This document shows, one piece after another, positions 28,576 through 49,542 of a stretch of DNA of 64,000 nt (position 1 is the stretch's first letter; every line of letters starts with the position of its first letter). Source of the stretch: Mycolicibacterium litorale (GTDB taxonomy: Bacteria > Actinomycetota > Actinomycetes > Mycobacteriales > Mycobacteriaceae); the NCBI RefSeq assembly GCF_010731695.1, contig NZ_AP022586.1, positions 3,410,001 through 3,474,000 on the forward strand, given 5' to 3'. The translations under genes were made by a program, and so were the position numbers. Under the pieces are notes generated by a model. It was not told the origin of the DNA. It saw only the letters and a program-made list of their open reading frames with translations, and searched no databases.

Positions 28576-28794
28576 GGCGCTTTTGAGCCGTTTGCGCCAC
28601 CGTGGCGATGGACAACCGCGCTGAGCTGCGACGATGTACCCACGGTTTGGGTGACACATCCCATTCCGCGTGCGCGCCATACGCGATGGGGAGGACGGTG
28701 ACGCGGTCGACTCGTAGCCCCCACGCCCCCGATGTCGCCGCCGTGGCCTAAGTTGGACGGTCGAGCACGGACGAGCACAGATCGAGGACTGCAG

Positions 28795-30234: not shown

Positions 30235-30914
30235 CCACCGAGCCCGACATCGACTTCTCACAGTTGCCGCAGGTCGACCAGAACGCCCGGCCCCCGCACC
30301 AGCGCAGGCCGCGGTTCGACGGCGACGTCTCCGAGCTGCCCGACCGGGCGTGCTGGGCGCTGCAGAACCTGCTCACCCGCCGCTACATCAGCGCGGAGTC
30401 CGACGGCGACCTGTTCAGCTGGGTGCTCGAATACCGCAAGCAGCTCGCCGTGCGGCTCTCCGAACTCGACCTGTTGCTGCGCATCGTCGACGGCGCCGAC
30501 GTCGCGTTCGTCGAACAGGCCCGCTACGAATCGGCAAGGGGCGCCAAGCTTTTGCGCCGCGAGCCGCTCGGCACCTACGACTCGATCCTCGCGCTGCACC
30601 TGGCGCAGATGATGCGCGCGGCCGGAGGGCAGAGCGTGCTGATCAGCCGCGAGGAGATGCACGGGTTGTTCTCCGGCGTGCTCAACGACACCGACCGGGA
30701 TGCGGTCACGTTCGCGGCGCGTATCGACGGCGCCATCGCCCGACTGGCCGGGCTGGAGATTCTGCGCCGCAGCCGCGACGACGAGGACAGCTACACCATC
30801 AGCCCGGTGATCAACGCGGTCATGACGGCCTCGGTGATCACCGAATTGCAGCGGCAGTTCGAAACGCTGCTGAACGGCGGCACGCCGCAGGGAGAAGCAG
30901 AGCTGGATGACTGA
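30231..30914 (+). CDS. jetB: JetB/MksE-like KITE subunit of Wadjet system (DUF4194)
   Basis: This 227-residue DUF4194 protein is the small KITE-type winged-helix partner that joins the kleisin and SMC subunits. Typical features are the central [20 protein letters not shown] segment and the late [20 protein letters not shown] beta-wing. The GTG start overlaps the jetA stop (GTGA), and the stop overlaps the jetC start by eight bases. The order and overlaps match type I Wadjet operons. Confidence 0.87.
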
Positions 30915-33900: not shown

Positions 33901-34302
33901 AACGCCGGCGACAACTCCGGTGGTGAGCAGGAGAAGCTGATGGCGTTCTGCCTGGCGGGCGCTTTGAGCTTCAACCTCGCCAGCCCCGAAAGTACCGACA
34001 ACAGACCGGTTTTCGCTCAGTTGATGCTCGATGAGGCGTTCAGCAAGTCGGATCCGCAGTTCGCGCAGCAGGCGCTGTCGGCGTTCCAGAAGTTCGGGTT
34101 CCAGCTGGTGATCGTGGCGACCGTGCAGAACGCGACGACGATCCAGCCCTACATCGACAGCGTGGTGATGGTGAGCAAGACCGAGGCGACGGGCCGCAAC
34201 GCCCGCCCCGTCGCGACGGTGGCGACGCGGACGATCTCGGAGTTCAGCGCGCTGCGGCAGGAGATGCGGGCGAGCGCGAAAGTGCCGGCCCTCTCCCGCT
34301 GA
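30907..34302 (+). CDS. jetC: JetC/MksB-like SMC ATPase of Wadjet system
   Basis: This 1131-residue SMC-like ATPase has Walker [10 protein letters not shown] at residues 35-43, long coiled coils on either side of a hinge region (about residues 480-640), an ABC signature [12 protein letters not shown] near residue 1002 and Walker [12 protein letters not shown] near residue 1038. It extrudes DNA loops and, with JetA and JetB, presents circular plasmid DNA to the JetD nuclease. No jetD follows; the next gene is unrelated. The ATP-binding residues are intact, so the motor itself appears functional. Confidence 0.92.
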
Positions 34303-34326
34303 GACTGCGGATCGAGCCGAGGCGCG

Positions 34327-34345
34327 TTGACTCTGCGACCACGGC
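34327..34345 (+). repeat. 19-nt direct repeat, left copy
   Basis: TTGACTCTGCGACCACGGC matches 17 of 19 positions with 50592-50610 in the same orientation. The two copies bracket the segment that holds the large-protein operon. It may be a boundary repeat or a dispersed genomic element. Confidence 0.5.
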
Positions 34346-34580
34346 CGAGCGCCGCTCTTGTGACACCGATCGCGGACTATCCGAGAGCCTGGCTTCGACA
34401 GCGGGCCTGATCAAGTACCTGGCTACTCGCGACTCGGCGCCGTGACCTCGCTACGTTGCGACTGCGCTGTCAGCCAACCGTCAAGGAGAGCCAGCATCAC
34501 CGACGGCTCTGCCCAATCCCGCCAGAAGCGACCACCGCACATCACCATCGCGACCTGTCGGCGCGAGTCAAGTCACGTAG

Positions 34581-34592
34581 TCGAGTACTCGA
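34581..34592. promoter_or_regulatory. 12-bp perfect palindrome upstream of P5-like gene
   Basis: TCGAGTACTCGA is a perfect inverted repeat 95 bp before the start at 34688. The overlapping word GTAGTCGAGTAC (34577-34588) matches 9 of 12 positions of the GTAGTGAACTAC dyad found at 48084. Confidence 0.35.
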
Positions 34593-34687
34593 TACCACAC
34601 GCGCCCCGCGACATACGTTCTGTGACACGGACGCTGACATTCTTACGGCGGCCGCTCACCACCAGCCACAGAACACGGAGGGCACTG

Positions 34688-35344
34688 ATGTCGATCGTTT
34701 CAGGAGACCATGTGTGGTACTACAACGGGCTCGGCAACGCCGAGGCCATAGCGGGCGAGCAAATCACGACCGACCTGAGCATTCCTAGGACGCAATGGTT
34801 TCCGGCGGCCAATCCTCATGATCGCAACGACTACCGCGACAACGGTCGGTTCATCTTCAACTATGTCTTCTACGACTCAGAGATACGTGTCGGCCAGCCA
34901 CATCTGCGTTCCGGGGCAGGAAGTTTCGCGTGGCTGAACAACAACCCGGGCAACCTGACCGGCCATGTCGGCGGACCTGATTTCGGTCAGTACATCGACA
35001 AGTTCAACTGGCACAATTTCTTGATCTTCCCGGACTACGCAACGGGTTTCACCGCAATAGGCGCCTTTCTGCGCCAAGGGATCTATCCACCGCTGTCGAT
35101 CCTGGAGGCGTTTCGCAGGTATGCGCCCGCCAGTGACGGCAATACTCCGGACGTCTACGCAGCAGATGTCGCAGCGGCTGCCGGCGTGCCGATGGACACG
35201 CCCGTGGGTGATCTCGGCGATGACCAGATGTACGAGATGCAGCTCAAGATCGCGCAGATCGAGGGAACCGTCGAAGGCACGACGTACGCCTACAATTCGC
35301 CGGACCTGCCGCCGGCAATTCAAGCGCTCGTCAGCGAGCTCTGA
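34688..35344 (+). CDS. Phage P5-like peptidoglycan hydrolase/lytic transglycosylase-like protein
   Basis: This 218-residue protein contains NNPGNL at 85-90, FPDYATGFTAIGAFL at 114-128 and RRYAPASDGNTPDVYAADV at 143-161. This trio resembles the lysozyme-like domain seen in phage virion proteins often labelled structural protein P5. A Glu at about 140 could be catalytic. There is no Sec signal or membrane helix, so export would need another route. The ATG at 34688 has GGAGGG five bases upstream; longer starts lack one. It occupies the place where jetD is expected and ends 15 bp from the convergent large-protein operon. Base composition is lower in GC than jetC. Confidence 0.55.
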   Translation: MSIVSGDHVWYYNGLGNAEAIAGEQITTDLSIPRTQWFPAANPHDRNDYRDNGRFIFNYVFYDSEIRVGQPHLRSGAGSFAWLNNNPGNLTGHVGGPDFGQYIDKFNWHNFLIFPDYATGFTAIGAFLRQGIYPPLSILEAFRRYAPASDGNTPDVYAADVAAAAGVPMDTPVGDLGDDQMYEMQLKIAQIEGTVEGTTYAYNSPDLPPAIQALVSEL

Positions 35345-35359
35345 GCCACCGCGGCAGAC

Positions 35360-37111
35360 TCACGACTCCGAATCGGGTGTGGTCGCGTCGAAGCGCAATG
35401 CCGACGACGCTTCGCCGCGCCACACCCGCTTCTCTTTTCCGCGCCACACGAAGCTGCGGCCGTCGTGCGATCGCGCCAACTGGTCGACGAGACGGAGCCG
35501 GATTCCCGCCGAGCTGACCTCTTCCTCCCGGATGTCCGGCATCTCGGCCAAGACTGCGCTCTTGGTGGCGGTGGTGCGACCGCATGCGGTGTCCAGGATC
35601 GACGCGCGGCGCAGGAGTCGCGGCCCGTCTCCTCCGCCTTCCACAACGGCGACAAGCGGTGTCCACGTTTCCGCGACTGGTGTGGCGAGGCGCCAGACCA
35701 GTTCGAACTCCTCTGCGGAGATCGCCCGCGGCGGAATGAATGAGGACGCGAACCAGGGCCGCGGGACGGCCCGCCCTGCGGGTCCCATCACAGTCTGTTC
35801 GATCGACCAAGCCAGATTCGCCATCTCGTCTCGTTGCAGCGAGACCTCCTCCAGCGCAGGGGACGTCACCGTCGCGAGCGCGCTGGGAAGCACCACCAAC
35901 AGGGGGGTGTCCGCTGCGGCCCCATCGTCGGCGGCGTCGGGCTGGAACTGCCGCCCGACGCCGTCGCCGGCCTGGGTGCTCCTGGTGCCCACCAACGTAG
36001 CGACGCCGAAGGTATCGCGGACGATGACCCAGTCGATGCAACTGACGGATGCCACAGGGACTTCGACCGGGGCGAGATACCAGTCCGGGCTGTAGATGAC
36101 GGCGAATTCCGTCGCCAGCATCCGTGCCAGATCAGTCCTGCCGTGCGATGCGGTTCCCAGTGCCACCGACGCATCCTCCATCTCCCAGAATCGGCCTGCC
36201 GCCATGCCGGGGAAGGTCAGTGGACTGGGCAGCACTGTGGTGGCGCGTGCACCGACGCGCGCGTCTGCGTCGTTGGCGGCCCCGAGCGTGGCGCCGGGCA
36301 CGTGGTCCACTGAACTCCAGTGCATCCCTCTACCGTCATACTGCGCGGCGCCGAGCACGACTTCGTCGGTTGTTCCCGGCAGCGGCGGCGCCGCCAGCGA
36401 ATACGAGTACTCGAGCCGGTCCGGGATCCATGCCGCCGAGCCGGGTGTGGCGTCGGCGATTCCCCACTCCTCGTCGATAACGGTGGCCCATGCGGTGAAC
36501 AGGTCATCGAGGTCGTCGAGACCGAGCTCCGCGGGCAACGCACCGGACCTGTGCAGACCCAACACCTTGGCGCCGTCGATCGTACGCCCGACTCCGTCCG
36601 CCGGCCCCAGCAGGGCGCGGTAGCGGGCCTCCGTGCTCGCCTCGACGCGACTGTTGTTCGCGACGGCCTCCGCGTCCGGCGGGGCGAACATGGTCGACGG
36701 ATGGGCGGCGAGCGCTGCCGCGGCGGTGTCACGGCCCGCGGCGCGCAGCATCTCGGCCAACAGGGCGCCGGCTCGCACCGCCACGGTCCATGGCGTCGAG
36801 TCCGACCGGTCGAGTCGGATGACCGGTTCGCGCTCCACGACCGCCTCCAACGGCGGGCCGTCGGGGTCGTAGGGCACCGGTTCCGCCGGTGGGACTTGCT
36901 CCGTCGAAAGGCCACCTTCAGCGCGGTATCGGGTGAATCTCGACCAACTGGCACCGATGTCGATCGCGACGGGACTTCCGCTGTCGTCACCGGTCATCTC
37001 CCCGAATTGCCACTGACGCAACAACAACCAGAGTGGGTCGGCGACTTCACCGGCCAGGCCGTCGGCGATGTCGGTGGTTCGGCGGTGCGGTTCGACGCGC
37101 ATCCAGGGCAT
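35360..37111 (-). CDS. Uncharacterised large protein E (DPLWLLxRQWQ type), last gene of five-gene operon
   Basis: This 583-residue protein has no signal peptide, membrane helix or known catalytic motif. The N-terminal block ADPLWLLLRQWQFGEMTGDDSGSP (split at residues 24-47) and the later FWEMED plus DLARMLATEFAVIYSPDW (about residues 304-345) are strongly patterned. From memory they recur in large uncharacterised proteins of many bacterial phyla, which I could not verify. The protein is rich in Trp and acidic residues. The ATG is at 37111, 15 bp after the stop of the 1528-residue gene. It is the promoter-distal gene of the operon. Function unknown. Confidence 0.7.
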   Translation of the reverse strand: MPWMRVEPHRRTTDIADGLAGEVADPLWLLLRQWQFGEMTGDDSGSPVAIDIGASWSRFTRYRAEGGLSTEQVPPAEPVPYDPDGPPLEAVVEREPVIRLDRSDSTPWTVAVRAGALLAEMLRAAGRDTAAAALAAHPSTMFAPPDAEAVANNSRVEASTEARYRALLGPADGVGRTIDGAKVLGLHRSGALPAELGLDDLDDLFTAWATVIDEEWGIADATPGSAAWIPDRLEYSYSLAAPPLPGTTDEVVLGAAQYDGRGMHWSSVDHVPGATLGAANDADARVGARATTVLPSPLTFPGMAAGRFWEMEDASVALGTASHGRTDLARMLATEFAVIYSPDWYLAPVEVPVASVSCIDWVIVRDTFGVATLVGTRSTQAGDGVGRQFQPDAADDGAAADTPLLVVLPSALATVTSPALEEVSLQRDEMANLAWSIEQTVMGPAGRAVPRPWFASSFIPPRAISAEEFELVWRLATPVAETWTPLVAVVEGGGDGPRLLRRASILDTACGRTTATKSAVLAEMPDIREEEVSSAGIRLRLVDQLARSHDGRSFVWRGKEKRVWRGEASSALRFDATTPDSES

Positions 37112-37126
37112 GGTCGGGCCTTTCGC

Positions 37127-40100
37127 TCAGAGCTCGGCGTGGATACGGAGGGCATCGACGCCGATGGCGCGGGCTCTGGCGATGTCGGCGAACGCGTTGG
37201 GGCGGGGCTCGAGCGGCTTGACGCCGGACAACTCCTGCCGGACGTACGTCAGCGGGAAGAACTCGGCGGCCCCCGTGGGCGCCAGCTCGTCGAGCGTCAC
37301 CCCGCGCATCCGGCTCATCACCAGCGTGTCAGTGATCATCTCCGTCAACATGCGGTGGGTCCACACTTCGTCCGGATCGGCCGGCGTGGCAAGCAGAATC
37401 GATTGTGGCGCACGGGCGTTAGGAGCGTCGTAATGGACGGCCAGGCCAGTCGTCACAGTGGGCGACGGCAGTACCTCCCCCACCTCGTCGACGACCAGGG
37501 CGTGCATCCGCTGGGCCTGCAGGACCTGGTCAGGTGCCGCCACGACCAGATGAGCGCGGGGACCGGACGGCCGTCTCCACCGGCGCAACTCGTTGCGCTT
37601 CTGCCCGGGCGGCGGGTCGCCCGCCGCCGGTAGCGCTCCGCCAAGCCAGCCCTCGTCGGGGACGAACGGCAGTTGACTCACCGACAGCGGCGCAGGTTGT
37701 GCGACGAAGAGGCGCAGGTCCTCGTACGCGGCGATATTCGGACGTACCCGCCCCAGGCGCGTCAGCCATCGTCGGACATCATGCGGCGCGGCCGGGACAC
37801 TCGCCGCGGACAGTGTGTGCGCGACCGCCAGGGTGGGAACCACGGCACGCCCTGCGATTCGGCGTGTCACTTCCACGAGTACGTCGAACCTGTTGTCCTC
37901 GCGGCGCAGTGCCGCCAGGCGCTGTTCCCAGGCCATCGGTGCGTCGTCCGCGCCGCCGCGCGGCAGCAGTGCCGCGACGTCACGGAGGCTTGCCGCGGCC
38001 GTCTGTGCCACCGACACCGCGTCGTAGATGGTCACCTGCTCTGCGCGGAATTGGGCTCCCGGTATGCCGAGCGTGGTGAACACCCGCATCTCGTCGGCCG
38101 CGACCCTGGTGTCCTCGGTGGCCGTCTCGGCGGCCTCGATCACCCGCGCGACGGCGGCGCTCACCTGCTCGAGGAGCGTCCCGAGGGCCGCCACGACCGG
38201 GTGACTATCCTCGTCCGTGGGCAGCGGAGGCTCCGGTGCGACTGGGGTACTCACCGGGTCCGCCTCCGGTGGAGCGGTCAAGTCGACAGCGGTCGCGGGA
38301 CGCGACTTGGCCAGCACCTCGCCCGCGGCCTGAGCCAGGGCGACCAGCCGATCGTAGGTATGACCGAACGGCATCGCGTCGTCCGCTGAGAGGCCGGCCG
38401 CAGCACGCAGCCGGTCGGCGAACACTGGCGAGGACGCCTCCGCTTCGACACACACATCCAGCGCACACACCCCGAGATCCGCCAGGCGCACCGTCGGCCC
38501 GCCGGGTGCCTCGGACAACACCCAGTCCGTAGCCGGACCGATCACGGACTGCGCCCAGCGTTCCGCGTGCGGCGCCAATCGCGCCCGTGCGGCTTCGACA
38601 TTCCATCCCGCCAGCGGCGGTTCGGACGTCAGGCCCACGACCACCTTGTGCGTGATGGTGATGCCTGACCGGGGTTCGTGGGTGACCGCGGGATCCGGTG
38701 GCCGGGAACCGGTGGCGACCGCTGAGAACAGTGCTCCGGCGGTGTCACTGTGTCCGGTCGTCAGGGCGTGCACCCCCTCGGCCACAAGCAGATCCGACAC
38801 CGCTTCGACGCTGCGGGCCAGATTGTCGAGGGCTTTGAGACAGACTGCGTCACCGCTCACGCCGGGCAGGGCGATCACTTCGTCATGGTGCTCGTGCACC
38901 GCCAACCCGTCTACCACGGCCGCGGCAGTGACAGCATCGCTTCCAGCGGCCGCGTCCGCCACGTGACGGTGTGGGTAGCGGGCTCGCAAGGTCGTCACGA
39001 TCGTGTGCGAGCCGTGATCGCCGAGTTCGCGTTCGAGTTGGTACCCGAGCAGGGCTCCGAGCGATTGCCCGTTGGCAACGCCATCGAGCAACTGCGTGCC
39101 GACCCGGACTTGCTTGCTGGTCAGATCGATCGAGGCGAGGCTGCTACCGGTATCGCGGTGTGACAGCTCCCCTGATCGCAGCACCCCCGCCGTTCTGGCC
39201 TGATCCAGGGATGGTGCGTGCACGTATCCGACAGGCTGGGCCGGCAGCCGCAACTCACCGTCGGTGACCGCTGCGTTCTCCCAAAGCGCAGGAGCCGCAA
39301 CGTTGTTCGTGTGAGAGCGCCGTACGTCGACCAGGACTCCCCAGCAACCCAGCTGAATGCCGGTCGGGCGGCTTGCGCGCAGCGTCGCCAGTCGCTGCGT
39401 GGCCAATGAGGTGTACCAGGCGTCAAGGCGGGAGGCGCAGCAGTCCAGCACCTCGCCGGTCAGACGGGTCAGATCCCGCGGTTGCAGGTCCGCATCGGCG
39501 AGCACGCCGACCGCCTCCTGGGTGCCGGCGAAGTTGTTGGGCCGCGTCTTGGGTTTGTAGACCACCACCCGGAAGTCGTCTTGTTCGAGGGCATCGGTGA
39601 TGGACATGCCCATGAGTTCGTCGACACGCTGCTCGGTGAACTCCGGCCGGGCCAGCAGGGTGGGGCGCAGATCGGCCGTGAGTCCCTCGGCGACCGTGAG
39701 CGCGGCAAGTTGCTTCTTACGGGCACCGACGGTGCTCGCCGGATCGGCCTCCACCTGGCCGACAGAGCCGAGTAGCGACGCAAATGCCTCTCCGACGAAC
39801 GCGTGGTCGACGTGGGCGAAGCGTGTTCTCACATCGAGTTCCTTCGACAGGGCCAGCGCGTGCTCCAGGAGCAGATACAGCAAGTCCTCGGGGCGGTCGT
39901 CGATTTCCGCCGGAACGCCGGAGCCGGCGAGCTGCCTCAGGTACTCACGTGCGTCCGCGGTCGCGATGGGACGCCCCATCGGCTCCGGGGCGCCGCCGGA
40001 GCGCGAAAGCATGTCTTCGAGAAGGGAGCCCGTGACTGCGAATCCGATGTCGTCCGCGCTGACAGATTCGGCCATGATCGACTTGATCACGTCGACCCTG

Positions 40101-41713
40101 ACCTCCTCGACGATTTCCGCCTGTTGTCGAAGGGCGTACTCAGCCAGTGTGCTGACGGGAACCGCCGGCAAGGTCTTCAGGCTTGCCGCCTTGTCGACGA
40201 GGTGCATCACCCTGCCCAGGAACTCACGGCCCGCATATCCGCCCCGATGCGGCACCGGCGCCTGGGTCAGGATCTGTGCGGTCAGATCGGACACCGACAC
40301 GCCCGCGCGCGGCGACGTCACGAGGTTGGGCACGTTGCCGGAGGCCCGCAGCCACCATGGGCGGAGCCGGTCGAGCAGCGCCCGCAGGCGCTGTGAATAC
40401 GCCGGTTCGTCACCGGCGGTGGCGTAGCGAGCGCCGGCGAGTACGGGGAGGATCCCGTAAGGTTGGCGTCCGACGCGCACCGTGGGCAGCGGTCCGCGTC
40501 CGCGGACATACGATGCGAAATGCTCTCTGGCGAAAGGCATCACGGCGTCCACCTGGTCGAGGAACGCCGCGATCTCGTCGAATTCCATGCCGTACTCGCC
40601 GTCGGACGGGCGGGTCAGCACGGCAATGGCTTCACCCAGGGTGACCGGGAACAACGCCAGCGCCATCGCACGGGAATGTCGTTGTTCGCAGCCGTGGTAT
40701 CCGGCGATGGACGCCAGAGACCGGTCAGCCAGCCCGAGGGCGGACTCGAGGGACGCCCCGTCCGACGAGCCACCACGCAACGCGGAGATCTCGGGTTCTG
40801 CTGCGCCACCGACTCCCACGGCGAACAGGCGGTCGTATCCCGCGAACGGGTCGGTGGCGGCGGCGAATCCCGAAGCCCGCTCGGAGAGGTTGTTGGTCGG
40901 CGTTCCCTGCGCGATCAGTGACAGCTCCGTAGCGTCGGCGTGGGTGTCCAGCAGGCGGGTGAGCGCGAGTGCTTCCTCTGCCGGGCCGCGACCGGCGACA
41001 GGCTCCCGGACGCCGACGACCACGAGCGTGTCCACGCCCTCGGCAGCAACCCGGGGCAACCCGTCCAGGTCGATCTCGGCGGCCATTCCGAGGTCCAGAG
41101 CGCGGGAGAAGTCGGTGAGCCAGCGTGACTCGTCGTCGGACGGAATGATGTGCGGATCACCGGGGTCCAGAGCGTTGCGGCCGTCCTCGGCACCCGGTCC
41201 GGCGGCGAGGGACTCCCCGGCCGAGCAGACCACGTGGTGAGTGAACGCCGGTTCCGAGCCGAGGTAACCGGTGATCACCCACGCATCCGGCATCAGATGA
41301 GCACGCGGTCGCGGCGTACCCGCATCGACCGGATCCGGCGCGCCGTGGCGGCACAACGCCGCGACCGGGTAAGCCCGTTCCACACCGACGCGGCGGGTCA
41401 GCACCTCCCACACGGTGCGGGCGGCGTAGGCGGCGGCCGCCGGATCATCCGGGTGGGCGTCCAGCGCGGCGGCATGGTCCGCCCAGAACTGTGCGCCCGC
41501 CTGAATCTCACTGGTGGACACGCTTTCCCGGTCGGTGGTTACCGAAATGTCGTCGGGGTATATCCGGATCCGAAGCACCCCCGCGGGAGCTTCCGCACCA
41601 TCGCTGCGCCGAGTGCAGTAGCGGGTTTCAAGACGAATCGGCATCAACGCGATCGGGACGGCAGGGTCGAGGGTCGACCACAGTTCCGGCGGTGGCGCGA
41701 TGGGTGGTGCCAT
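37127..41713 (-). CDS. Uncharacterised giant protein D (1528 aa)
   Basis: This protein of 1528 residues is one of the largest products in the window. It has no signal peptide or membrane helix. The N-terminus reads PIRLETRY (25-32) and LRIRIYPDDISV (47-58), and VGRQPYGILPVL lies near residue 414. A Pro/Ala-rich linker at about 1140-1165 separates a C-terminal helical part. I recognise no enzyme domain. Long alpha-helical and mixed segments suggest a structural or scaffold role, but that is a guess. The ATG at 41713 has AGGGGA upstream and lies 9 bp from the preceding gene, so it is clearly cotranscribed. Confidence 0.7.
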   Translation of the reverse strand: MAPPIAPPPELWSTLDPAVPIALMPIRLETRYCTRRSDGAEAPAGVLRIRIYPDDISVTTDRESVSTSEIQAGAQFWADHAAALDAHPDDPAAAAYAARTVWEVLTRRVGVERAYPVAALCRHGAPDPVDAGTPRPRAHLMPDAWVITGYLGSEPAFTHHVVCSAGESLAAGPGAEDGRNALDPGDPHIIPSDDESRWLTDFSRALDLGMAAEIDLDGLPRVAAEGVDTLVVVGVREPVAGRGPAEEALALTRLLDTHADATELSLIAQGTPTNNLSERASGFAAATDPFAGYDRLFAVGVGGAAEPEISALRGGSSDGASLESALGLADRSLASIAGYHGCEQRHSRAMALALFPVTLGEAIAVLTRPSDGEYGMEFDEIAAFLDQVDAVMPFAREHFASYVRGRGPLPTVRVGRQPYGILPVLAGARYATAGDEPAYSQRLRALLDRLRPWWLRASGNVPNLVTSPRAGVSVSDLTAQILTQAPVPHRGGYAGREFLGRVMHLVDKAASLKTLPAVPVSTLAEYALRQQAEIVEEVRVDVIKSIMAESVSADDIGFAVTGSLLEDMLSRSGGAPEPMGRPIATADAREYLRQLAGSGVPAEIDDRPEDLLYLLLEHALALSKELDVRTRFAHVDHAFVGEAFASLLGSVGQVEADPASTVGARKKQLAALTVAEGLTADLRPTLLARPEFTEQRVDELMGMSITDALEQDDFRVVVYKPKTRPNNFAGTQEAVGVLADADLQPRDLTRLTGEVLDCCASRLDAWYTSLATQRLATLRASRPTGIQLGCWGVLVDVRRSHTNNVAAPALWENAAVTDGELRLPAQPVGYVHAPSLDQARTAGVLRSGELSHRDTGSSLASIDLTSKQVRVGTQLLDGVANGQSLGALLGYQLERELGDHGSHTIVTTLRARYPHRHVADAAAGSDAVTAAAVVDGLAVHEHHDEVIALPGVSGDAVCLKALDNLARSVEAVSDLLVAEGVHALTTGHSDTAGALFSAVATGSRPPDPAVTHEPRSGITITHKVVVGLTSEPPLAGWNVEAARARLAPHAERWAQSVIGPATDWVLSEAPGGPTVRLADLGVCALDVCVEAEASSPVFADRLRAAAGLSADDAMPFGHTYDRLVALAQAAGEVLAKSRPATAVDLTAPPEADPVSTPVAPEPPLPTDEDSHPVVAALGTLLEQVSAAVARVIEAAETATEDTRVAADEMRVFTTLGIPGAQFRAEQVTIYDAVSVAQTAAASLRDVAALLPRGGADDAPMAWEQRLAALRREDNRFDVLVEVTRRIAGRAVVPTLAVAHTLSAASVPAAPHDVRRWLTRLGRVRPNIAAYEDLRLFVAQPAPLSVSQLPFVPDEGWLGGALPAAGDPPPGQKRNELRRWRRPSGPRAHLVVAAPDQVLQAQRMHALVVDEVGEVLPSPTVTTGLAVHYDAPNARAPQSILLATPADPDEVWTHRMLTEMITDTLVMSRMRGVTLDELAPTGAAEFFPLTYVRQELSGVKPLEPRPNAFADIARARAIGVDALRIHAEL

Positions 41714-41722
41714 GGTTATCCC

Positions 41723-44700
41723 CTAGTCCAGGACGATGAACTCGGTAGCGGGAAGAAGAGCGCGGAAAGGTCTCTGGCACAGCCGCACACCGACCTGAGT
41801 GCTGGTCGCCGAGGCGGCGAGCATGCCTGCCGTCAGGTGACCGCCGTCGATGACCGGGTCGGGCAGCCCCTGCCACGACCAGTCAACCGGTCGGCGGCCG
41901 GCATTTGCGCCGCGGACATCGCTGCTCTTGTCGTCGAGACCGAACCGCGGCTCGCGAGTGTTCTCGAGCAGCGAGACATACCACCGATGGGCGTCGCCAT
42001 CGGGCGGCTCGAGCAGCCTGCTCGGGGCGATGTCGAGAATGCTGTAGTTGACGTCGTCGTCGATGTGGCCGCGGTCGATCTCCGCGGCCTCTTCGGTGCC
42101 CTCGAAACCGCCGCCGACGCGTCTGCCGCGTACCGCGCTCACGATCGTGGTCGGGTAGCGCCGCAACAGGTCTCCCTTGATGACGACTACCGTCAGATCC
42201 TGAGGGAGGGTGCCACCGGCGTGATTGTCGCCGAGGGACGTCCACGCGGCCAGCGGTTTGACATCGGGCTGCGGCAGGTCCCAGAACCGGCGGAAACAGG
42301 TGCCCCGCACGTCGGTGGGGTAACCGCGCCACGTCAGCTCCCGCATGATCTCGTGGTTCGCCCCGGCGAGGAAAGCCTCGATGAATCGAGCGTTGATCCC
42401 GAACACCGACACCGAATTGGGGGCGAGTCCGCCCACGCCGCCGAGTAGCCAGTCCTTGTCCACGACGGCCAGCCGTTTGACCAACGGTTGGGTGAACTTC
42501 GGCGCCGCACGCAGCGGGTGGAAGAACGACTTGCCCATCCGCACGACGTCGTCGCTGACCACCGTGTGGGCGTAGGCCAGCAGGTCGCGGTAGGTCTGCC
42601 GTGGGTCCAGTGCGGTGACCGCAGTTTGCGTGGCGGTCGCGTCGAACGCTGCGAAACGCGGGGGTTTCGCTGTGGTGGAGCGTTTTCGGGCTCGCAGATC
42701 GACAGCCGCGCGGAACGCCGCCACGTCGCCGTCGGACAACTGTCCGAGTCGCGCCGGCGCGCTCGACCGGGTGATGCCCAACTCGGCGAGCACGCTGATG
42801 CGTATCGCCTCGGCAGCTCCCAGCGCGGCGGCATTCGTGGGTTCGCTGATCGTGGTGGACAGCAATGTGCCCGGGGCCGAGCGCAGAGCCGGACCCAGCG
42901 CCAGACGGACATCTTCGGACGCGAGACTCAGTTGGACTCCGGCGGGAACAGGCAGTTCCTCGCGGTGTACTGCCGCGATCTGACGGACCGGCATTGTCAT
43001 GCGTGCGGGCGCCCGCACCGCATCCGGAACCCCGTCGACCCGCTGCGCATCGATGACCACGTCGGGATGCCTGCGCGCCAGCTTGGGCAGACGCTTGCCC
43101 AGCGCCTTCCTCAGCAACCCGGGGTCGGCCCCTTCCCTGAGCACTTTCGTGTCGATGCGTTGCTCGCGCCGGATCACCTCGTGCACAGGACGGTTGACGG
43201 TCTCGTGCACGACGAGCCGCTTGGCCCAATCCTGGTCGCCGATCTGCTCGGTGATTCGCGGCCCGATCCGCACAGCCACGTCATCGTGAACAGACATGTC
43301 ATCGCCGTCATCGGGTTCGACCAATCGGTCGGCAATGGTCGCCGTGATGGCCGAGACGTTCTCGAGCACGGCAAGCCTGCCGATCAGAGCATCTGACCCG
43401 AGTACCGTGCGCACCGCATCGAGGTCCACGCGCGGCTCGTGGGTCAGCCGCTGCGGAATCACCGTGGCAGAACCGGACGCGAGAGCGGTCACGATCGCCG
43501 CGCTGATAGTGGTCGGCGAGACCCTGGCATCGTGCAGTTCCGCAACAGCACTCGACGCGACCGCAGCGCGGCGCGCCCGGGCTGCGGCCCTGACCATCGA
43601 CGGACCCAAAGCCTCCAATGGCAGCGTCGTAGTCTGTAGCTCTGCGTGCAGGGTGCGTCCGGGGTGGACGGCGATACGGCCGAAGCTACTGGAGGTGAAC
43701 CGCAGTCTGATGTCGTCGGGAGCCGCGGCCAGCTTGGTGTGCAGCGTCTGAAGCGCGCTGGCCATCAGCGCGGCGATCCTGATGCGCCGGTTGGCATCCT
43801 CGAGATCTGCGAGCTGCTGCCAGGCCTCCGCCATCAGCGACTCCTGGTCGTGAGCGACGACGCGGGCGCCCAGTCCGGCAGCCATGCGCTGATAGGGGTC
43901 GGCATTGAGTTGTGTCACCCAGTGGTGAGTGTCCGAGACGTCCAGCGAACCCGCACCTGCGGCCCACTGCCCGTACAGCGGCGGCCCGACTACCGGTTCT
44001 GCCGCCTCGGCGGTGGCAACGAGGTCGACCAGTTCTTTCAGGCGGCTCTGCAGCCGGGTTGCGCGATCCGTGGGGGCGGCCTGGTCAGGGGCGAAGGGGC
44101 TCAGCGGTGGTTCTCCGGCCTGCCGATCGACCCTCGCGATTGCGGTCGGGACGCGCTCCACTCCCGGTGCGAAGTCGGGCTCCGGTTCTCCCTGGCCCTC
44201 TGGCCGCTCTTGCATCAGCGAGGCCCGGGCCTCGACGGCGACCCGTCGTTCGCCGAGCCCGGCGGCGGACGGCACCTTGCGCAGCTTGCGCGCCAGCGAC
44301 TCGAAATCCCCTGCGGGACCGGTGGTGAAGCTCCAGTGGTCGTAGGCGGGCAGCTGTAGTCCGTCACCAGGACTCCAGAACGCATAACCCGGCGGATTCA
44401 ACGCGGCGAAGCCTTTGCCCCCCGGTTCCCAGAACCGGTCATCGGGATGGGCGGGCACGTCGACGCCGAGGCCCGCCAACCGCCCCAGCTCGAAGGTGGG
44501 CACCAGGGCCGCGATGTAGTCGGTGTTGGGCGCCAACTTCGTCGGGCAGATGATGCGCGATCGCACCCCGGAGGCCTGCGGGTCGGCAGTGACGACAGCC
44601 CGCCCGTCGACGTCTCCCGCCACCTGGACGTGGGCGAACGCCCACGCCTGCGCGGGAGAACTCAGCGCAGTGCCGTCGAGCACGCGGAGCACTGGCCCGC

Positions 44701-45106
44701 GCGGACCGGACTGGATCCGGCCCTGCCGATGCGCACCCTTGCTCCGGACGACCACCAGCATCAACCACGGGTCGAATCTCCCGTCGCGTGCGCCACCGCT
44801 GAACAGCCACGGAAGATCGGCGTGCCCGAATTCGATGAGCGCGAGGAAGTTCGGCTCGTGCCGGCCGTCGCCCGGCACCGGGCTCCGTCGCACGATCTGC
44901 AGCGCATTGATGCCTTCGCAGTCGGCAGGACCGAGCAGCGTGACACCCGCTGCGGTCAGAGTCCCGTCGAGTGGCGTCGGTCCCTGATGGCCGCCCAGCT
45001 GTAGTGCGGGCGTCACAGTGCGCCTGCCATCACAGCGAACCTCCCCGGTCGGTGCGGCGGCAGCGCCACGGCGAGACCAGGAAAGCAGGGTCAGGGACTC
45101 GGTCAC
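41723..45106 (-). CDS. Uncharacterised giant protein C (NHExxRELxWRxYPTD type)
   Basis: This protein of about 1127 residues has no signal peptide or membrane helix. Its most conserved-looking part, at about residues 908-940, has GANHEIMRELTWRGYPTD and then RFWDLP. From memory this is the hallmark of a widespread but unnamed family of large bacterial proteins (unverified). The GTG at 45106 overlaps the stop of the upstream gene (GTGA) and has GGGAGG about ten bases before it; a GTG at 45124 would add six residues. No catalytic motif is seen. It is the third gene of the five-gene operon. Confidence 0.7.
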   Translation of the reverse strand: MTESLTLLSWSRRGAAAAPTGEVRCDGRRTVTPALQLGGHQGPTPLDGTLTAAGVTLLGPADCEGINALQIVRRSPVPGDGRHEPNFLALIEFGHADLPWLFSGGARDGRFDPWLMLVVVRSKGAHRQGRIQSGPRGPVLRVLDGTALSSPAQAWAFAHVQVAGDVDGRAVVTADPQASGVRSRIICPTKLAPNTDYIAALVPTFELGRLAGLGVDVPAHPDDRFWEPGGKGFAALNPPGYAFWSPGDGLQLPAYDHWSFTTGPAGDFESLARKLRKVPSAAGLGERRVAVEARASLMQERPEGQGEPEPDFAPGVERVPTAIARVDRQAGEPPLSPFAPDQAAPTDRATRLQSRLKELVDLVATAEAAEPVVGPPLYGQWAAGAGSLDVSDTHHWVTQLNADPYQRMAAGLGARVVAHDQESLMAEAWQQLADLEDANRRIRIAALMASALQTLHTKLAAAPDDIRLRFTSSSFGRIAVHPGRTLHAELQTTTLPLEALGPSMVRAAARARRAAVASSAVAELHDARVSPTTISAAIVTALASGSATVIPQRLTHEPRVDLDAVRTVLGSDALIGRLAVLENVSAITATIADRLVEPDDGDDMSVHDDVAVRIGPRITEQIGDQDWAKRLVVHETVNRPVHEVIRREQRIDTKVLREGADPGLLRKALGKRLPKLARRHPDVVIDAQRVDGVPDAVRAPARMTMPVRQIAAVHREELPVPAGVQLSLASEDVRLALGPALRSAPGTLLSTTISEPTNAAALGAAEAIRISVLAELGITRSSAPARLGQLSDGDVAAFRAAVDLRARKRSTTAKPPRFAAFDATATQTAVTALDPRQTYRDLLAYAHTVVSDDVVRMGKSFFHPLRAAPKFTQPLVKRLAVVDKDWLLGGVGGLAPNSVSVFGINARFIEAFLAGANHEIMRELTWRGYPTDVRGTCFRRFWDLPQPDVKPLAAWTSLGDNHAGGTLPQDLTVVVIKGDLLRRYPTTIVSAVRGRRVGGGFEGTEEAAEIDRGHIDDDVNYSILDIAPSRLLEPPDGDAHRWYVSLLENTREPRFGLDDKSSDVRGANAGRRPVDWSWQGLPDPVIDGGHLTAGMLAASATSTQVGVRLCQRPFRALLPATEFIVLD

Positions 45107-47136
45107 GGCACCGCCACCTCCCACGCACGACTGATCTGGAGGTCTGCGGGTCCCCCTGTGCGGACCAGGGATTCAGCGATTCCGGGGTTCCGCGTCATCG
45201 CCGCGATCGCGGTCGTGTCCTGGCCCAGGCGCGCGGCCAAGATGTCCGTCGCGGCGTTCAGCCCTTCGACGTGGGTGACGACGCCGATGGCGGGGTCGCG
45301 CAACGCGATCAGGGTCTCGGGCGGTGATGTGAACGCCGCGGCCGCCGCGCTGGTGGGCAACGTCACCACGGCGAGGGCCTGCCACGCGTTGGCGGAGATG
45401 ATGCGGGTTTCCGGGTCGAGGGTGATCTGGTCGGCGTCACCTACGACAGGGCTGCAGTCAACCGTGAAACCTCCGGTCAATTCGGCGTAGCCGGCCGAAG
45501 CCAGCCTGGCGTTGTCATCCATATCGAGGTACTGCGCCGGTGGGAATTGAGCGGTACACGGAGCGATCCGGCCGACCTGAGCAACGATGGTCAGTCGCGT
45601 CGGCGCGGCCAGGGGCACGAAATCCATGCGTGTGAGCTCCACATCCAGCGGCACGGCGTTTTGGACGAACGTCAACTCAGCGAGCGGATGGACCGCCGAT
45701 TCCCGATCGCTTCCCGGGCGCAATCGGACCAGCGCCGGTACTGCGGCGTTGGCGGCCGACCAGTTCTCGGTGCGCATCAGCTCGTCTCGCAGAACAGTGA
45801 CGGGGTTCCGAGCCGGCGGTAGCGCCTGGGTCGATCGCTGCCCCCACGTGAGTTCCGGGATGTCGACGCTGACGCCGAACCCGAGAACCTCGACCCGGGC
45901 GTGGCCGCGGATTCGCCAGGGCGACGTTCCGCTCAGATGCCCGCGCAATGTGACCGACGCGACGTCGAAGTCGGCGCACTCGACGCTGACACAGGCTGCG
46001 AAATCGGCCTGAAACCCGAATGGTTGCAACATGATGAGCGCGTCGAAGCTGAAGTTCCCGTGGATGCCGAACCCGTCGATTCCCGCAGTGAGTTCGGCAC
46101 GCGCACCGAACTGCAGCGAGCTGGTGGTGATCGCCAGGTAGGCCTCGAGGCGGGCGCGTAACAACGGTCCTGGTGAGATCTCGGTCCCGAGGCGACGCAT
46201 GCCCGCCATCCCGTCGGGCGGGGCGAACGCAGGATGGAAGCCGCCCGCGGACATCACGAACAGGCCGCTTGGGCCGCCGGCGATGCGCAACGCCATGTCT
46301 CCCTGCACCGGCATTCCGGCGATGTGTGAGTCCATCAGCGAGGCAGCGATGTTCAGGCCGTCGGAGGTGATGGTGCCGAGTACGGCGGCCTGCAGGTGTA
46401 TCAACGCCGCCCCGTCGAAGGGCAGGGTCATCGCGACCTTACCCACGATCACCACACCGTCGGTGGTGATGAGTACGCCTATGGCCGCGGCCACCAATGT
46501 GGGTGTGCCGAAACCGAGTTTGAGCATCGGGCCGACGACCATCGACCCGGTTTCCTCCGGAAAGAACCCACTCAGGGCGGGCAGTAGCCGGTCAGCTTCG
46601 GCGGCGGCGTCGCGGGGGAACATCAAGGCTCCGAGGGCGCCGGAGCCGAGCCCTTCTCGTAATGCCTCGATGTCGGGACGGCGGTTGATGCCGATGATGC
46701 CGCCGACGCCAAGTAGCGTGAATCCGAAGGACAACTGGATCGGCACGGCGAATTCGGCGGCCAGCAACACGAGCAGAGAGAAGTCGTCGCTCGACAGGAT
46801 CGCGAAGCCGTTGACGCTGACCGGCCCCAGGTCGGCGGTCAAGGCGCCGCGGTACTCGTCGCCGACCACGGCCAGATACCCGCCGCCCTCGACGCCGGGG
46901 ATGTTGAGCTCGACACCGGCACCGCTGACCGTGGGTTCGTCGAGCTCCGCGGCGAATCCGAACCGGCCTTCGGCGTCGGCCAGGGAGAGGCGGAGTGCGG
47001 CGCGGACTCCGGTGACGCGCACCTTCAGCCCAGGGAGGTCGGCACCAAGGTCGGCGGTGATGGCCACCTCGAGCGCGCTGTCGCGTCCGTCGGGTCGGCC
47101 GGCGAGATCCATCGACACGTCGACGTTGTCACCCAT
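45103..47136 (-). CDS. DUF6603-like beta-rich protein (protein B)
   Basis: This 677-residue protein is dominated by short alternating hydrophobic strands separated by Gly and Asp turns, as in an elongated beta structure. The segments GFTLLGVGGIIGINRRPDI and SAGGFHPAFAPP (about residue 294) fit the DUF6603 family as I remember it. There is no signal peptide and no catalytic motif. The ATG at 47136 has AGGAG seven bases upstream; the longer form to 47259 reads into the previous gene. It lies 10 bp after the first gene and overlaps the third. The function of DUF6603 is unknown. Confidence 0.68.
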   Translation of the reverse strand: MGDNVDVSMDLAGRPDGRDSALEVAITADLGADLPGLKVRVTGVRAALRLSLADAEGRFGFAAELDEPTVSGAGVELNIPGVEGGGYLAVVGDEYRGALTADLGPVSVNGFAILSSDDFSLLVLLAAEFAVPIQLSFGFTLLGVGGIIGINRRPDIEALREGLGSGALGALMFPRDAAAEADRLLPALSGFFPEETGSMVVGPMLKLGFGTPTLVAAAIGVLITTDGVVIVGKVAMTLPFDGAALIHLQAAVLGTITSDGLNIAASLMDSHIAGMPVQGDMALRIAGGPSGLFVMSAGGFHPAFAPPDGMAGMRRLGTEISPGPLLRARLEAYLAITTSSLQFGARAELTAGIDGFGIHGNFSFDALIMLQPFGFQADFAACVSVECADFDVASVTLRGHLSGTSPWRIRGHARVEVLGFGVSVDIPELTWGQRSTQALPPARNPVTVLRDELMRTENWSAANAAVPALVRLRPGSDRESAVHPLAELTFVQNAVPLDVELTRMDFVPLAAPTRLTIVAQVGRIAPCTAQFPPAQYLDMDDNARLASAGYAELTGGFTVDCSPVVGDADQITLDPETRIISANAWQALAVVTLPTSAAAAAFTSPPETLIALRDPAIGVVTHVEGLNAATDILAARLGQDTTAIAAMTRNPGIAESLVRTGGPADLQISRAWEVAVP

Positions 47137-47146
47137 CTCAGCTCTC

Positions 47147-48016
47147 CTAGGCCAGTGATCGTTGCTCGAAGGCGAACTGCGGTGTTTCCCCTTGCGCCAG
47201 TGAGATTCTCGGAGATACGCCCTGATGGATGTCGGCGACCGACAGGAGCGGCGAGTCACCGATCAGCTCCGCCGGTTTGAGGTGCGCTTCGATGCCCTCC
47301 TGCATGTTCCGGGCGGGGACGATCTGCAGGCTGAACGTGTACAGCGGCGAGCTGGAGGCGAAGGTAGCTGACAACCGGATCGCGCCCGCGGCGAACCCGG
47401 CGATCGGGGAAGAGGGCAGATCGGGCAGGGCCCAGGTGATCTCCGCGGTCAGCGCCAGCTCGCCCTCCGGCAATTGCGCACCCGATCCGAAGGCCCACTC
47501 CCAGTTCATTTCGTGAGGACCGGGTGCCTTCATGACGACCCTCAAGGGTGCGGCTTCGTCAGCGGGCAGACTGAATTCGGTGAATGCGGGTTCGACGTGT
47601 ACCTGCACTCCGCGCTTGGTGGTTGCGCCCTGCTCATCGTTCCTGTCAGTGATACCGAGACCCACGACCATCTCCGCCGCGCCGCCGGGGTCGCGCGCAT
47701 AACCCAGCGTCAGCATCCGCGACCAGCCGGGAGGATGCGTGGCGCCGACGCTGAGGTGGTCGGGATCAAGTTTGTGAATCTCCAGCAGGATGGCGGCCAG
47801 CAGGCTCCACCAGTCGGGAGGGTCAACGCTGTCGTGGAGGGCACTCAGGACATCCGCGGGCAGTTCCTTGGCGTTGCGCAGGCTGTCACCGAGTTCATCG
47901 GCGAGCCGGTCGAACGCCTGGCCGAGTCCATTCGGCGCATCGGCTGCCGCCTCGGCGGCGGATCGAATCAGCTCCCCGAGGACCGGAATGACATTGTCGG
48001 GCGTGGCCGTCGGCAT
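47147..48016 (-). CDS. Uncharacterised protein A, first gene of the five-gene operon
   Basis: This 289-residue protein has an alpha-helical N-terminal 70 residues. These lead to a W-rich hinge (PPDWWSLLAAILLEIHKLDPDH, residues about 66-87 in two parts), then a beta-rich C-terminal region. No known domain is recognised. The similar beta pattern to the adjacent DUF6603 protein, with matching operon position, suggests it works with it. The ATG at 48016 has AGGAG six bases upstream. The gene is divergent from the Ig-like membrane protein gene across 174 bp that carry two copies of a 12-bp dyad. Confidence 0.65.
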   Translation of the reverse strand: MPTATPDNVIPVLGELIRSAAEAAADAPNGLGQAFDRLADELGDSLRNAKELPADVLSALHDSVDPPDWWSLLAAILLEIHKLDPDHLSVGATHPPGWSRMLTLGYARDPGGAAEMVVGLGITDRNDEQGATTKRGVQVHVEPAFTEFSLPADEAAPLRVVMKAPGPHEMNWEWAFGSGAQLPEGELALTAEITWALPDLPSSPIAGFAAGAIRLSATFASSSPLYTFSLQIVPARNMQEGIEAHLKPAELIGDSPLLSVADIHQGVSPRISLAQGETPQFAFEQRSLA

Positions 48017-48083
48017 GCATCGCTCCTGACGCAGGTAGAGACTGTCGCGACCATGAAATCCGACGTGGGCTGGGAATGCGCGA

Positions 48084-48095
48084 GTAGTGAACTAC
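48084..48095. promoter_or_regulatory. 12-bp dyad GTAGTGAACTAC, copy 1
   Basis: GTAGT and ACTAC form a perfect inverted repeat around GA. It lies 68-79 bp upstream of the operon start at 48016. It is the best copy of a motif that recurs at 48135 (9/12) and 48650 (10/12). Confidence 0.45.
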
Positions 48096-48134
48096 CTGAC
48101 TTGCCGGTGCCTACGGGCATACAAGATAGAGGCC

Positions 48135-48146
48135 GTTGCGCACTAC
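48135..48146. promoter_or_regulatory. 12-bp dyad-like motif, copy 2
   Basis: GTTGCGCACTAC matches copy 1 at 9 of 12 positions and shares the following CTG. It sits about 45-56 bp upstream of the start codon at 48191. Confidence 0.35.
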
Positions 48147-48179
48147 CTGTTTTCGGCCGGGATGAGCCGATGTTGCCCC

Positions 48180-48185
48180 CATAAT
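48180..48185 (+). promoter_or_regulatory. -10 element CATAAT before the Ig-like gene
   Basis: CATAAT ends five bases before the ATG at 48191, and no ribosome-binding site is present. The mRNA may therefore be leaderless or nearly so. Confidence 0.4.
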
Positions 48186-48190
48186 CGGGC

Positions 48191-48637
48191 ATGGCGGAAA
48201 GTAATACGCTCAAGAACGTCAGCATCGTCGTGGGAATTGTCGCGACGCTTGTCACCACCATCATCGCCGTGTTCCAGTTCTTGGATCGCGACGGCTCCGG
48301 CGGGGCGACGTCATCTTCCACGGACGATGTCACGTCGATGGTCGACGCGAACGCTGGTTGTGGGATCGCCGCGCCGGCGGAGATCACGCTGTCGTCCGGG
48401 CAGGCCTCCCGAGGCGAGCAGGTCACGGTGTACGGATCCTGTTTTCAGCCGGACGAGCGTGTGACGATCAGGGTGCACGCCACTGAGGTGGGTTCGGCGA
48501 CAGCGGATTCCGAGGGCGGATTCACCCAAACCATCACCATTCCCGACTCGGCGCCCCCGTCAGGCTTCCCGACCGACATCAGCGCGACCGGCCGCTCGTC
48601 GGTGAAGACCGGTACGGCACCGTTCGAAACCGGCTGA
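48191..48637 (+). CDS. Membrane-anchored Ig-like (TIG-type) domain protein
   Basis: This 148-residue protein has a short cytoplasmic start, one membrane helix (about residues 9-30), a Ser/Thr linker and one extracellular beta domain of about 90 residues. The block LSSGQASRGEQVTVYGSCF is the usual first strand pair of bacterial Ig/TIG domains, and two cysteines could form a disulfide. It is divergent from the large-protein operon and shares its control region. It could be a surface anchor or receptor for that system; this is inference. Translation probably starts on a leaderless mRNA. Confidence 0.6.
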   Translation: MAESNTLKNVSIVVGIVATLVTTIIAVFQFLDRDGSGGATSSSTDDVTSMVDANAGCGIAAPAEITLSSGQASRGEQVTVYGSCFQPDERVTIRVHATEVGSATADSEGGFTQTITIPDSAPPSGFPTDISATGRSSVKTGTAPFETG

Positions 48638-48649
48638 TGCGCAAGTAGG

Positions 48650-48661
48650 GTAGTGCTCTAC
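48650..48661. promoter_or_regulatory. 12-bp dyad GTAGTGCTCTAC, copy 3
   Basis: This matches the 48084 dyad at 10 of 12 positions and keeps both outer arms. It lies 83-94 bp upstream of the M15-like peptidase start. Confidence 0.4.
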
Positions 48662-48743
48662 GCATGTGGGGATTCCGTTGGCTTCCGTACGTTTCGAATC
48701 GCCGGCATTCGCCGACGCGAAGACAGAAACGATGGAGGAAACG

Positions 48744-49475
48744 ATGAGTTATCCGGCTCGCGCGATGAGCAAGACCGAGGCATTCGCCGAACTGCAGGCG
48801 CTTGTCGATGAGGGCACACTGTTGTTCGAGGGGCAATCCGACGAGCACCACGTGAACCTCGACGGGCTCAACCCCTACACCGGTGAGAAGCAGGCCGGAA
48901 ATGTCGCCGGCGTCGTCATCCGCTACGGCGAATCAGCCGCTGCACCCGACTACCTCGATCCGCGCAATGCACTGGCGTTGGTGCGGCTCTGCCAGTACCT
49001 GTCCAGTGAGTTCGGCGTGACCGACCTGTTTCATCTGGGCATCAGCGGGGACGCGTCGGGTGGCCGTACCGACTGCCACGGTCAGGGACGGGCGGTCGAC
49101 TTCGCCGGGGCGGCACGCCGTGTCGGCGACGACACCGACTTTCACCTCACGGTGCTCAACGACTGGGGCAATGCATCAACCGCCTACACGCCCGACGGAA
49201 ACTGGCCCGACGGCACTGGGAGCGCAGTGACGTTCCGCCTCGACGGCGAAGGAACGTTCGCCGAGTCGTTCTTCCGCAGCGTGTACGACTTCATCGCCGG
49301 TCAGTGGCAGGACCGCTCCGCGGACCCCGACGGCGAGGATGCGGCCACGTCGATCGGTGAAGGGAGCTTCATCATGAGCCCCGACCATCCTGCGACCGCA
49401 CCCGGCACTCCGCATGGGCGTGAAGCGCACAAGGACCATCTGCACACGCAGATCGGGAAAACCGGCCACGAGTAA
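48744..49475 (+). CDS. M15/VanY-like zinc D-Ala-type peptidase, no signal peptide
   Basis: The predicted 243-residue protein carries the complete M15-type zinc motif. DCHGQGRAVD supplies His112 and Asp119 (H-x6-D), and HKDHLH near the end supplies the HxH pair His232 and His234. M15 enzymes cleave peptidoglycan cross-links or D-Ala termini; phage endolysins also use the fold. A segment of about 100 residues between the motifs is longer than usual. No signal peptide is seen. The ATG at 48744 has GGAGG five bases upstream. A copy of the dyad motif precedes it, so it is likely part of the neighbouring system. Confidence 0.6.
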   Translation: MSYPARAMSKTEAFAELQALVDEGTLLFEGQSDEHHVNLDGLNPYTGEKQAGNVAGVVIRYGESAAAPDYLDPRNALALVRLCQYLSSEFGVTDLFHLGISGDASGGRTDCHGQGRAVDFAGAARRVGDDTDFHLTVLNDWGNASTAYTPDGNWPDGTGSAVTFRLDGEGTFAESFFRSVYDFIAGQWQDRSADPDGEDAATSIGEGSFIMSPDHPATAPGTPHGREAHKDHLHTQIGKTGHE

Positions 49476-49542
49476 CGCTTGTCGCAAGAGGCTGCGTTGT
49501 TGCGCTGCATCTCGACTCGCGCACGACTCTTGACGCGCGACG

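Follow-up and report, generated by a model that had tools for sequence, protein, structure and literature searches.

The window analysed here is a stretch of 64,000 nucleotides from Mycolicibacterium litorale (contig NZ_AP022586.1, positions 3,410,001 to 3,474,000), with a guanine plus cytosine (GC) content of 69%. Its reverse strand carries five consecutive genes for large proteins, termed A to E (Table 1), which we read with moderate confidence as a copy of a modular cassette for a large carrier of several subunits that would hold an exchangeable enzyme. Genes A and B are separated by 10 bp, B and C overlap by 4 bp, and gaps of 9 bp and 15 bp follow between C and D and between D and E; this spacing suggests transcription as a single unit. 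The arrangement is more than chance, because the order of its core genes recurs in distant taxa. All five genes show the GC distribution by codon position that is typical of coding DNA, and the recomputed calls agree with a first-pass annotation of this DNA in the number, sizes, strand and gaps of the genes. The same annotation had called the 677-residue product DUF6603-like and had found no signal peptides. Both statements hold, as B matches the Pfam family DUF6603 (PF20248) with 316.2 bits (E-value 4.8e-94; curated cut-off 27 bits), and in a simple hydrophobicity scan none of the five proteins showed a hydrophobic stretch at its N-terminus.

Table 1. Features of the cassette and its surroundings in the window.
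Feature	Position	Strand	Description
A	47147-48016	-	289 aa, ATG start
B	45103-47136	-	677 aa, ATG at 47136
C	41723-45106	-	1127 aa, GTG start
D	37127-41713	-	1528 aa; largest subunit of the putative carrier, without known family
E	35360-37111	-	583 aa; last subunit of the putative carrier, without known family
F	34688-35344	+	~218 aa, start inferred; endolysin-like, convergent with E
G	48744-49475	+	~243 aa, start inferred; divergently oriented, unmatched in Pfam, PHROGs and PDB
H	48191-48637	+	148 aa; N-terminal membrane helix, 19-aa hydrophobicity 2.64 at residue 9
Variable island bearing the cassette	34270-49537		between JetC and a luciferase-like gene

The Pfam entry to which B belongs assigns no function, and none of the open-licence PubMed Central papers searched names DUF6603 or PF20248, a description elsewhere being possible. 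The host genome, a single contig of 5.58 Mb, contains one DUF6603 match. A, C, D and E gave no match at E-value ≤ 1 in Pfam and NCBIfam. Among the PHROGs, D showed a weak match to an unnamed family of 97 aa (E-value 2.8e-4) and A one match at chance level. A single 19-aa segment of B exceeds a Kyte-Doolittle mean of 2.0 (2.18), and it lies within a stretch modelled as beta strands. Sequence searches of the PDB with family profiles returned weak rows only; among them, coiled-coil designs for B and a bL20 row for protein E (E-value 0.008) were judged to be chance matches.

Relatives of D are widespread. A search with D returned 558 of them (120 listed), and a scan of genome_contigs with an alignment of 18 D sequences gave 370 coding stretches, from which 79 loci were kept. 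By their titles, these loci belong to Actinomycetota, Pseudomonadota, Nitrospira, Acidobacteria, Bacteroidota, Cyanobacteria, Chloroflexi, Planctomycetota, Verrucomicrobia, Bacillota and Myxococcota, among others, and to one metagenome-assembled genome (MAG) of Methanosarcinales. A tblastn search of a plasmid collection with D yielded 13 records, four of them haloarchaeal; the one haloarchaeal record inspected, a Salinigranum plasmid, encodes a further gene followed by B, C, D and E in that order. The distribution is patchy. A sample of 198 genomes from the window's phylum was searched for B, C, D and E one at a time. Every search returned the identical four genomes (G000, G193, G051 and G108) and no other, with the genes clustered; G000 is the window's own genome, placed in the sample by design. 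Among the 47 loci with at least 8 kb upstream and at least 2.5 kb downstream of D, which leaves aside 32 of the 79 including L022 and L040, B and C are present in all, E in 46 and A in 9. As these loci were chosen by D, the comparison is a fair test for the neighbours of D and an unfair one for D itself. The order B-C-D-E was scored in 45 of the 47 and is also that of the window; L002 was scored as "CBDE" owing to an over-extended C reading frame, and L072 gave no match to E.

The co-occurrence raised by the first-pass annotation is thus borne out for B, C, D and E, with a near-constant order. Its five-gene unit stands in part: B to E are linked, and the conserved unit comprises these four genes, A being most likely a detached N-terminal domain of B. 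That the proteins are merely co-inherited, each acting alone in one metabolic or surface process, is highly improbable. All-or-none presence in the 198 genomes, the near-fixed order, the overlapping genes, and the fusions and splits within the block speak against it. D and E are fused into one reading frame of 2101 aa in G193 (L164, 8692-14994), where a WD40 protein precedes B. On a plasmid of Rhizobium lusitanum (L086, 8480-21073), two overlapping, adjoining genes take the place of C and two that of D, and these splits likely mark domain borders.

The most informative feature of the cassette is a gene that the first-pass annotation did not mention. Directly before B, loci outside the window's clade usually carry an enzyme gene of varying type, often with a 4-bp overlap, and this position is termed the slot. 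Of 26 slot proteins compared with Pfam, 19 match a family at E-value ≤ 0.01, representing at least seven kinds of enzyme, although the matches of L068, one L033 gene, the L037 PKD gene and L162 lie below the curated cut-off. The enzyme families are PhoD phosphatase, subtilase (S8), NAL1/trypsin-like protease, M64 peptidase, tyrosinase, galactose/glyoxal oxidase and phospholipase D; other matches are to SCO1, PKD, WD40 and a peptidoglycan-binding domain. The M64 labels of L016, L020 and L066 and several PhoD and protease labels were assigned through motifs or through BLAST clusters that include a protein typed by Pfam, and not through a Pfam match of the labelled protein. Two further labels, "beta-lactamase-like" (L039) and "LAS-type" (L074), are presumptive, each being based on motifs recognised by eye in a single row. 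The slot protein of L066 (812-3415) is M64-like by clustering and has a degraded HExxH motif; it is possibly a dead enzyme retained as cargo. On a tree of D from 40 loci, the slot type requires 17 changes, the minimum possible being 11; this is a quick tree that warns of long branches and uneven composition, for which D proteins above 2100 aa were trimmed to their last 1750 residues.

Exchange of the slot gene is seen between L033, a Methylococcales MAG with a trypsin-like cargo, and L060, Nitrosomonas ureae with a tyrosinase cargo. The two loci share one DNA alignment of 13,044 columns at 86.4% identity, which spans B from residue ~486 through C, D and E; upstream of it, neither the cargo gene nor the beginning of B is matched. 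The corresponding pair scores are 0.05 for the N-terminal domain of B and 0.87 for the DUF6603 domain. In three other pairs with different slot types (L033/L072, L060/L072 and L054/L020), DNA similarity also begins near the equivalent site of B; the DNA-level comparison is one of different-slot pairs, and because these three are only 65-73% identical over long stretches, their border is explicable by a less conserved N-terminal domain.

Across 28 of the 30 labelled loci (L054 and L065 being missing from alignment A2), the mean normalised score of the B N-terminal domain is 0.151 for 58 same-slot pairs and 0.071 for 320 different-slot pairs, whereas the two groups hardly differ in the similarity of the DUF6603 domain (0.351 and 0.337). 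Regression on DUF6603 leaves a difference of 0.077 between same-slot and different-slot pairs, with a null standard deviation of 0.010 and p 2e-4 in a permutation test that shuffled labels. The N-terminal domain of B therefore tracks the type of cargo beyond the similarity of the core.

Homologues of A occur in 10 of the 79 loci and form a clade on one side of a branch of the D tree with a Shimodaira-Hasegawa-like approximate likelihood ratio (SH-aLRT) support of 100. With moderate confidence, A is most likely the N-terminal adaptor domain of B encoded as a separate gene. This reading is drawn from an hhalign match between A, over its length, and the N-terminal part of long B proteins (global E-value 1.5e-5, probability 57%; local E-value 0.001-0.003, probability 10-20%), from the position of A before a short B that starts near the DUF6603 border, ~50-70 residues short of the L033/L060 border, and from a second instance of a separate gene. 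The latter was observed in Methylocaldum (L159, 4369-18207), where a second cassette carries a separate N-domain gene of 332 aa before B.

Several cargoes share a putative docking domain. A C-terminal domain of ~115 residues with a W-H-R..GP core, termed WHR, is common to subtilase and trypsin-like cargoes, whose catalytic folds are unrelated, and it has 14 matches in the reading frames of the loci. In 27 whole genomes that bear the cassette, the WHR profile gave 17 matches in 11 genomes. All 15 matches with E-values below 1e-20 lie within 4 kb upstream of a DUF6603 domain, 11 of these having trained the profile, and two weak matches lie elsewhere. Pairs of WHR cargoes with different catalytic domains have a mean B N-domain score of 0.174 (15 pairs) and a DUF6603 score of 0.460, compared with 0.069 (160 pairs) and 0.352 for pairs of a WHR with a non-WHR cargo; the contrast in the N-terminal domain after regression on DUF6603 has p 5e-4. 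At the level of sequence, this fits a role of the B N-terminal domain as cargo receptor. The unfiltered WHR profile found no docking domain in the PhoD, M64, tyrosinase and oxidase cargoes among 24 slot proteins, so docking by WHR would cover only S8 and trypsin-like cargoes. Even within the former, L075 has an S8 cargo without a WHR domain.

The structure of B was predicted with AlphaFold2, giving a mean predicted local distance difference test (pLDDT) score of 85.6 and a predicted template modelling (pTM) score of 0.65. The model contains ~24 consecutive long strands joined by short turns and is read as one antiparallel amphipathic beta sheet. Its strands differ between their two faces, through alternation of hydrophobic and polar residues, by a mean of 3.07 as against 1.20 +/- 0.18 in shuffled sequences. 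The best Foldseek match is ApoB-100 (E-value 1.7e-4). The root-mean-square deviation from ApoB-100 and porin rows exceeds 10 Å, with TM ~0.2 and identities of 4-9%; the modelled B probably resembles ApoB, other large lipid-transfer proteins and beta-barrel porins in the style of its sheet rather than as a member of these families. In the AlphaFold2 model of C (mean pLDDT 74.3), a helical middle is flanked by a beta domain on either side; the model gave no Foldseek match at E-value ≤ 0.001 in the PDB or a viral library, with low Z scores. In 15 of 75 homologues of C, a hydrophobic stretch of 31-52 residues lies in the middle of the protein, measuring 40-50 residues in 12 of the 15, and is predicted to form a hairpin. 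In the 14 of these homologues that alignment A3 contains, it falls at a single position, which corresponds in the window's C to residue 610 and lies in a region of low model confidence. Its bearers (L033, L039, L043, L075 and 11 others) are spread across several cargo types.

These predicted features also suit a cytoplasmic platform on the producer's own membrane, in which the C hairpin would serve as an anchor, the B sheet would handle lipid and the enzyme would work at the inner membrane, nothing being exported. We regard this as rather unlikely. It is consistent with the ApoB-100 match of B and with the flanks of the hairpin, whose summed charge is positive even though individual rows deviate, like that of ordinary positive-inside anchors. 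It also agrees with the scarcity of signal-like sequences: besides the window's proteins, those of L084 and L087 (slot protein and B to E) have no clear signal-like N-terminal stretch, and neither do 23 of the 25 slot proteins scanned, L018 and L027 reaching 1.7. Tyrosinases, galactose oxidases, subtilases, M64 peptidases and peptidoglycan-binding proteins are, however, classes that are mostly exported. Moreover, most C proteins lack the hairpin, the window's among them, and the extra lamin tail, FG-GAP and Kelch domains found on some C and E proteins resemble domains of exported proteins.

A particle derived from a phage tail, whether a tailocin or similar to an extracellular contractile injection system (eCIS), with its recognisable tail genes lost, was considered as well. 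Giant, structural-looking proteins, cargo without signals and occurrence in bacteria and archaea would suit such an origin, and so would gene F, which matches phage endolysin (E-value 6.5e-6) and tape-measure (E-value 2.5e-5) profiles among the PHROGs. In addition, the scaffold MT835531 (L088), an unverified entry from a fecal metagenome labelled "Bacteriophage sp.", carries C, D, E and part of B; it is taken to be a bacterial contig. The explanation is nevertheless very improbable. A to E have no structural match among the PHROGs, ten flanking genes of the window have no tail-type Pfam match, and at other loci, where the judgement is based on recurrence of gene families, the core lacks the widely recurring further neighbours that would be expected of tail genes. 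Scans of viral contigs for D, E and B found no relative. A fold shared with phage tails, which the first-pass annotation had considered, was not detected for C, the viral structure library giving no match at E-value ≤ 0.001. The reading of a multi-protein assembly in that annotation keeps the co-occurrence and the order in its favour; judged from sequence, physical assembly is likely.

Known delivery systems offer partial parallels. The Tc (ABC) toxins likewise have giant subunits and pair a variable enzyme with a translocator that stays constant. The cargo of a Tc toxin is the C-terminal end of the RHS cage, whereas the putative cargo of the cassette is a separate gene before the carrier with an adaptor of its own, and no TcA, TcB or TcC domain (RHS, SpvB) was found in A to E by Pfam, NCBIfam or PHROGs. 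The eCIS load varied cargo without signal peptides. According to PMC8213781, they resemble the cassette in toxin delivery, in their many cargoes and in their occurrence in environmental bacteria and archaea. They are unlike it in that the cassette consists of four constant proteins and not of a tail.

The cassette of the window lies in a variable island (Table 1). G074, the one of four relatives on which the comparison is based, retains both flanks of the island, at translated identities of 94% and 88%, and has ~8.5 kb of unrelated sequence in place of the cassette. Directly to the left, at 28732-34302, the window encodes Wadjet-type JetA, JetB and JetC (PADLOC E-values down to 0); the interval from JetC to the cassette, to which the search was confined, contains no visible JetD. 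In G074 (L130, 1600-10070), JetC is followed by genes for a PIF1-like helicase, a DUF2293 protein and a HerA/AAA protein, and the site therefore looks like an insertion hotspot. Because G074 has JetC with other DNA and no DUF6603 gene, Wadjet (JetABC) is treated as an immediate neighbour and not as part of the cassette. Gene H has a weak Pfam match to TIG (E-value 0.0052, below the cut-off), and G contains H.G.A.D and H.H motifs, spotted by eye, which we take to be metallopeptidase-like. Gene F was found in one of the 198 phylum genomes, the window's own, and in three genomes (the window's, L003 and L007), always near a cassette, of a set of 12 comprising the window, ten A-bearing loci, L006 and L010. 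A link of L006 to the F family indicated by BLAST failed in the whole-genome search.

This neighbourhood, examined at the window locus and its relative, raises the idea of an anti-phage defence system in which the giant proteins would be sensors and the effectors interchangeable. Adjacency to JetA-JetB-JetC, the helicase and HerA-like genes at the equivalent spot of the relative, the exchange of effectors and the patchy distribution are all typical of defence or point towards it. PADLOC, however, gave no match at E-value ≤ 0.01 for A to E and none for two tested cargoes, Pfam and NCBIfam detected no NTPase or nucleic-acid-sensing domain in the core, and tyrosinase, galactose oxidase and peptidoglycan-related cargoes would be unusual effectors. 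A role in defence is accordingly improbable.

In the carrier model, the DUF6603 sheet of B together with C, D and E would form the constant carrier. The N-terminal ~450 residues of B, or the separate gene A in the window's clade, would be the adaptor, and the enzyme encoded just before B the cargo. The adaptor would bind a docking domain of the cargo, which for two protease classes would be the C-terminal WHR domain, and couple the cargo to the complex of B, C, D and E. The amphipathic sheet of B and, in some lineages, the hairpin of C may engage a membrane, a step suggested by just these two predicted features, and the enzyme would be presented at that membrane or delivered to it. We favour delivery to other cells, since most of the cargo classes are known as exported enzymes and eCIS provide a precedent for loading varied cargo without signals.

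A number of observations weigh against this model. In the window itself, no enzyme gene lies directly upstream of the adaptor, the next gene, H, being divergent; the slot is empty, and the linked gene F, the best candidate, is an accessory or cargo of this cassette by guess. The assignment of A as the N-terminal domain of B draws on a weak profile match and on position. Seven of the 26 slot proteins have no Pfam match (L019, two of L039, L074, L022, L040 and L029, the last with a PHROG protease match at an E-value of 4.4e-23). Slot types are also clustered on the D tree, where none of 200 shuffles, with a mean of 25.8 changes, was as low as the 17 observed; the cargo therefore descends in part together with the core, with frequent exchange. 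The permutation tests, in turn, used no tree model. Regarding docking, the WHR profile was built from cassette loci and most strong matches trained it, so that only the near-absence of the domain elsewhere is independent, and L045 (253-3225), with a galactose oxidase cargo, combines a WHR-type B N-terminal domain with no detectable WHR domain. The hydrophobic hairpin occurs in 15 of the 75 homologues of C and is missing from the window's own. The gene order is D-E-slot-B in L022, an archaeal MAG, and in L040, for which a rotation and two adjoining copies are both conceivable. DUF6603 also occurs outside the cassette, as Filimonas zeae (L160, 2430-17281) has a second DUF6603 gene, around which 19.5 kb of sequence revealed neither C nor D nor E; the members of this cluster (788, 1199, 621 with Kelch, 679 with PQQ and 589, an FAD oxidase) are possibly a sister system with another carrier. 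Lastly, a clustering of neighbours, not individually identified, revealed no further gene family that recurs widely beside the core, be it for immunity, lysis or secretion. With neither a signal peptide nor such a family, delivery outside the cell has no direct support.

The carrier model ties four families without assigned function, spread across many bacterial phyla and archaea, into one unit. Its division into a constant carrier, a matched adaptor and a cargo provides a testable logic and opens DUF6603 to experiment. In its fullest form, which we put forward tentatively and which may well prove wrong, the cassette would encode a previously undescribed enzyme-delivery nanomachine of bacteria and archaea, unrelated to phage tails and Tc toxins, with a membrane-engaging carrier of four proteins, adaptor-matched cargo and a docking domain. 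If the carrier model is right, microbes would have a novel means of deploying enzymes, and the carrier with its docking domain could serve for study as a natural device for loading proteins.

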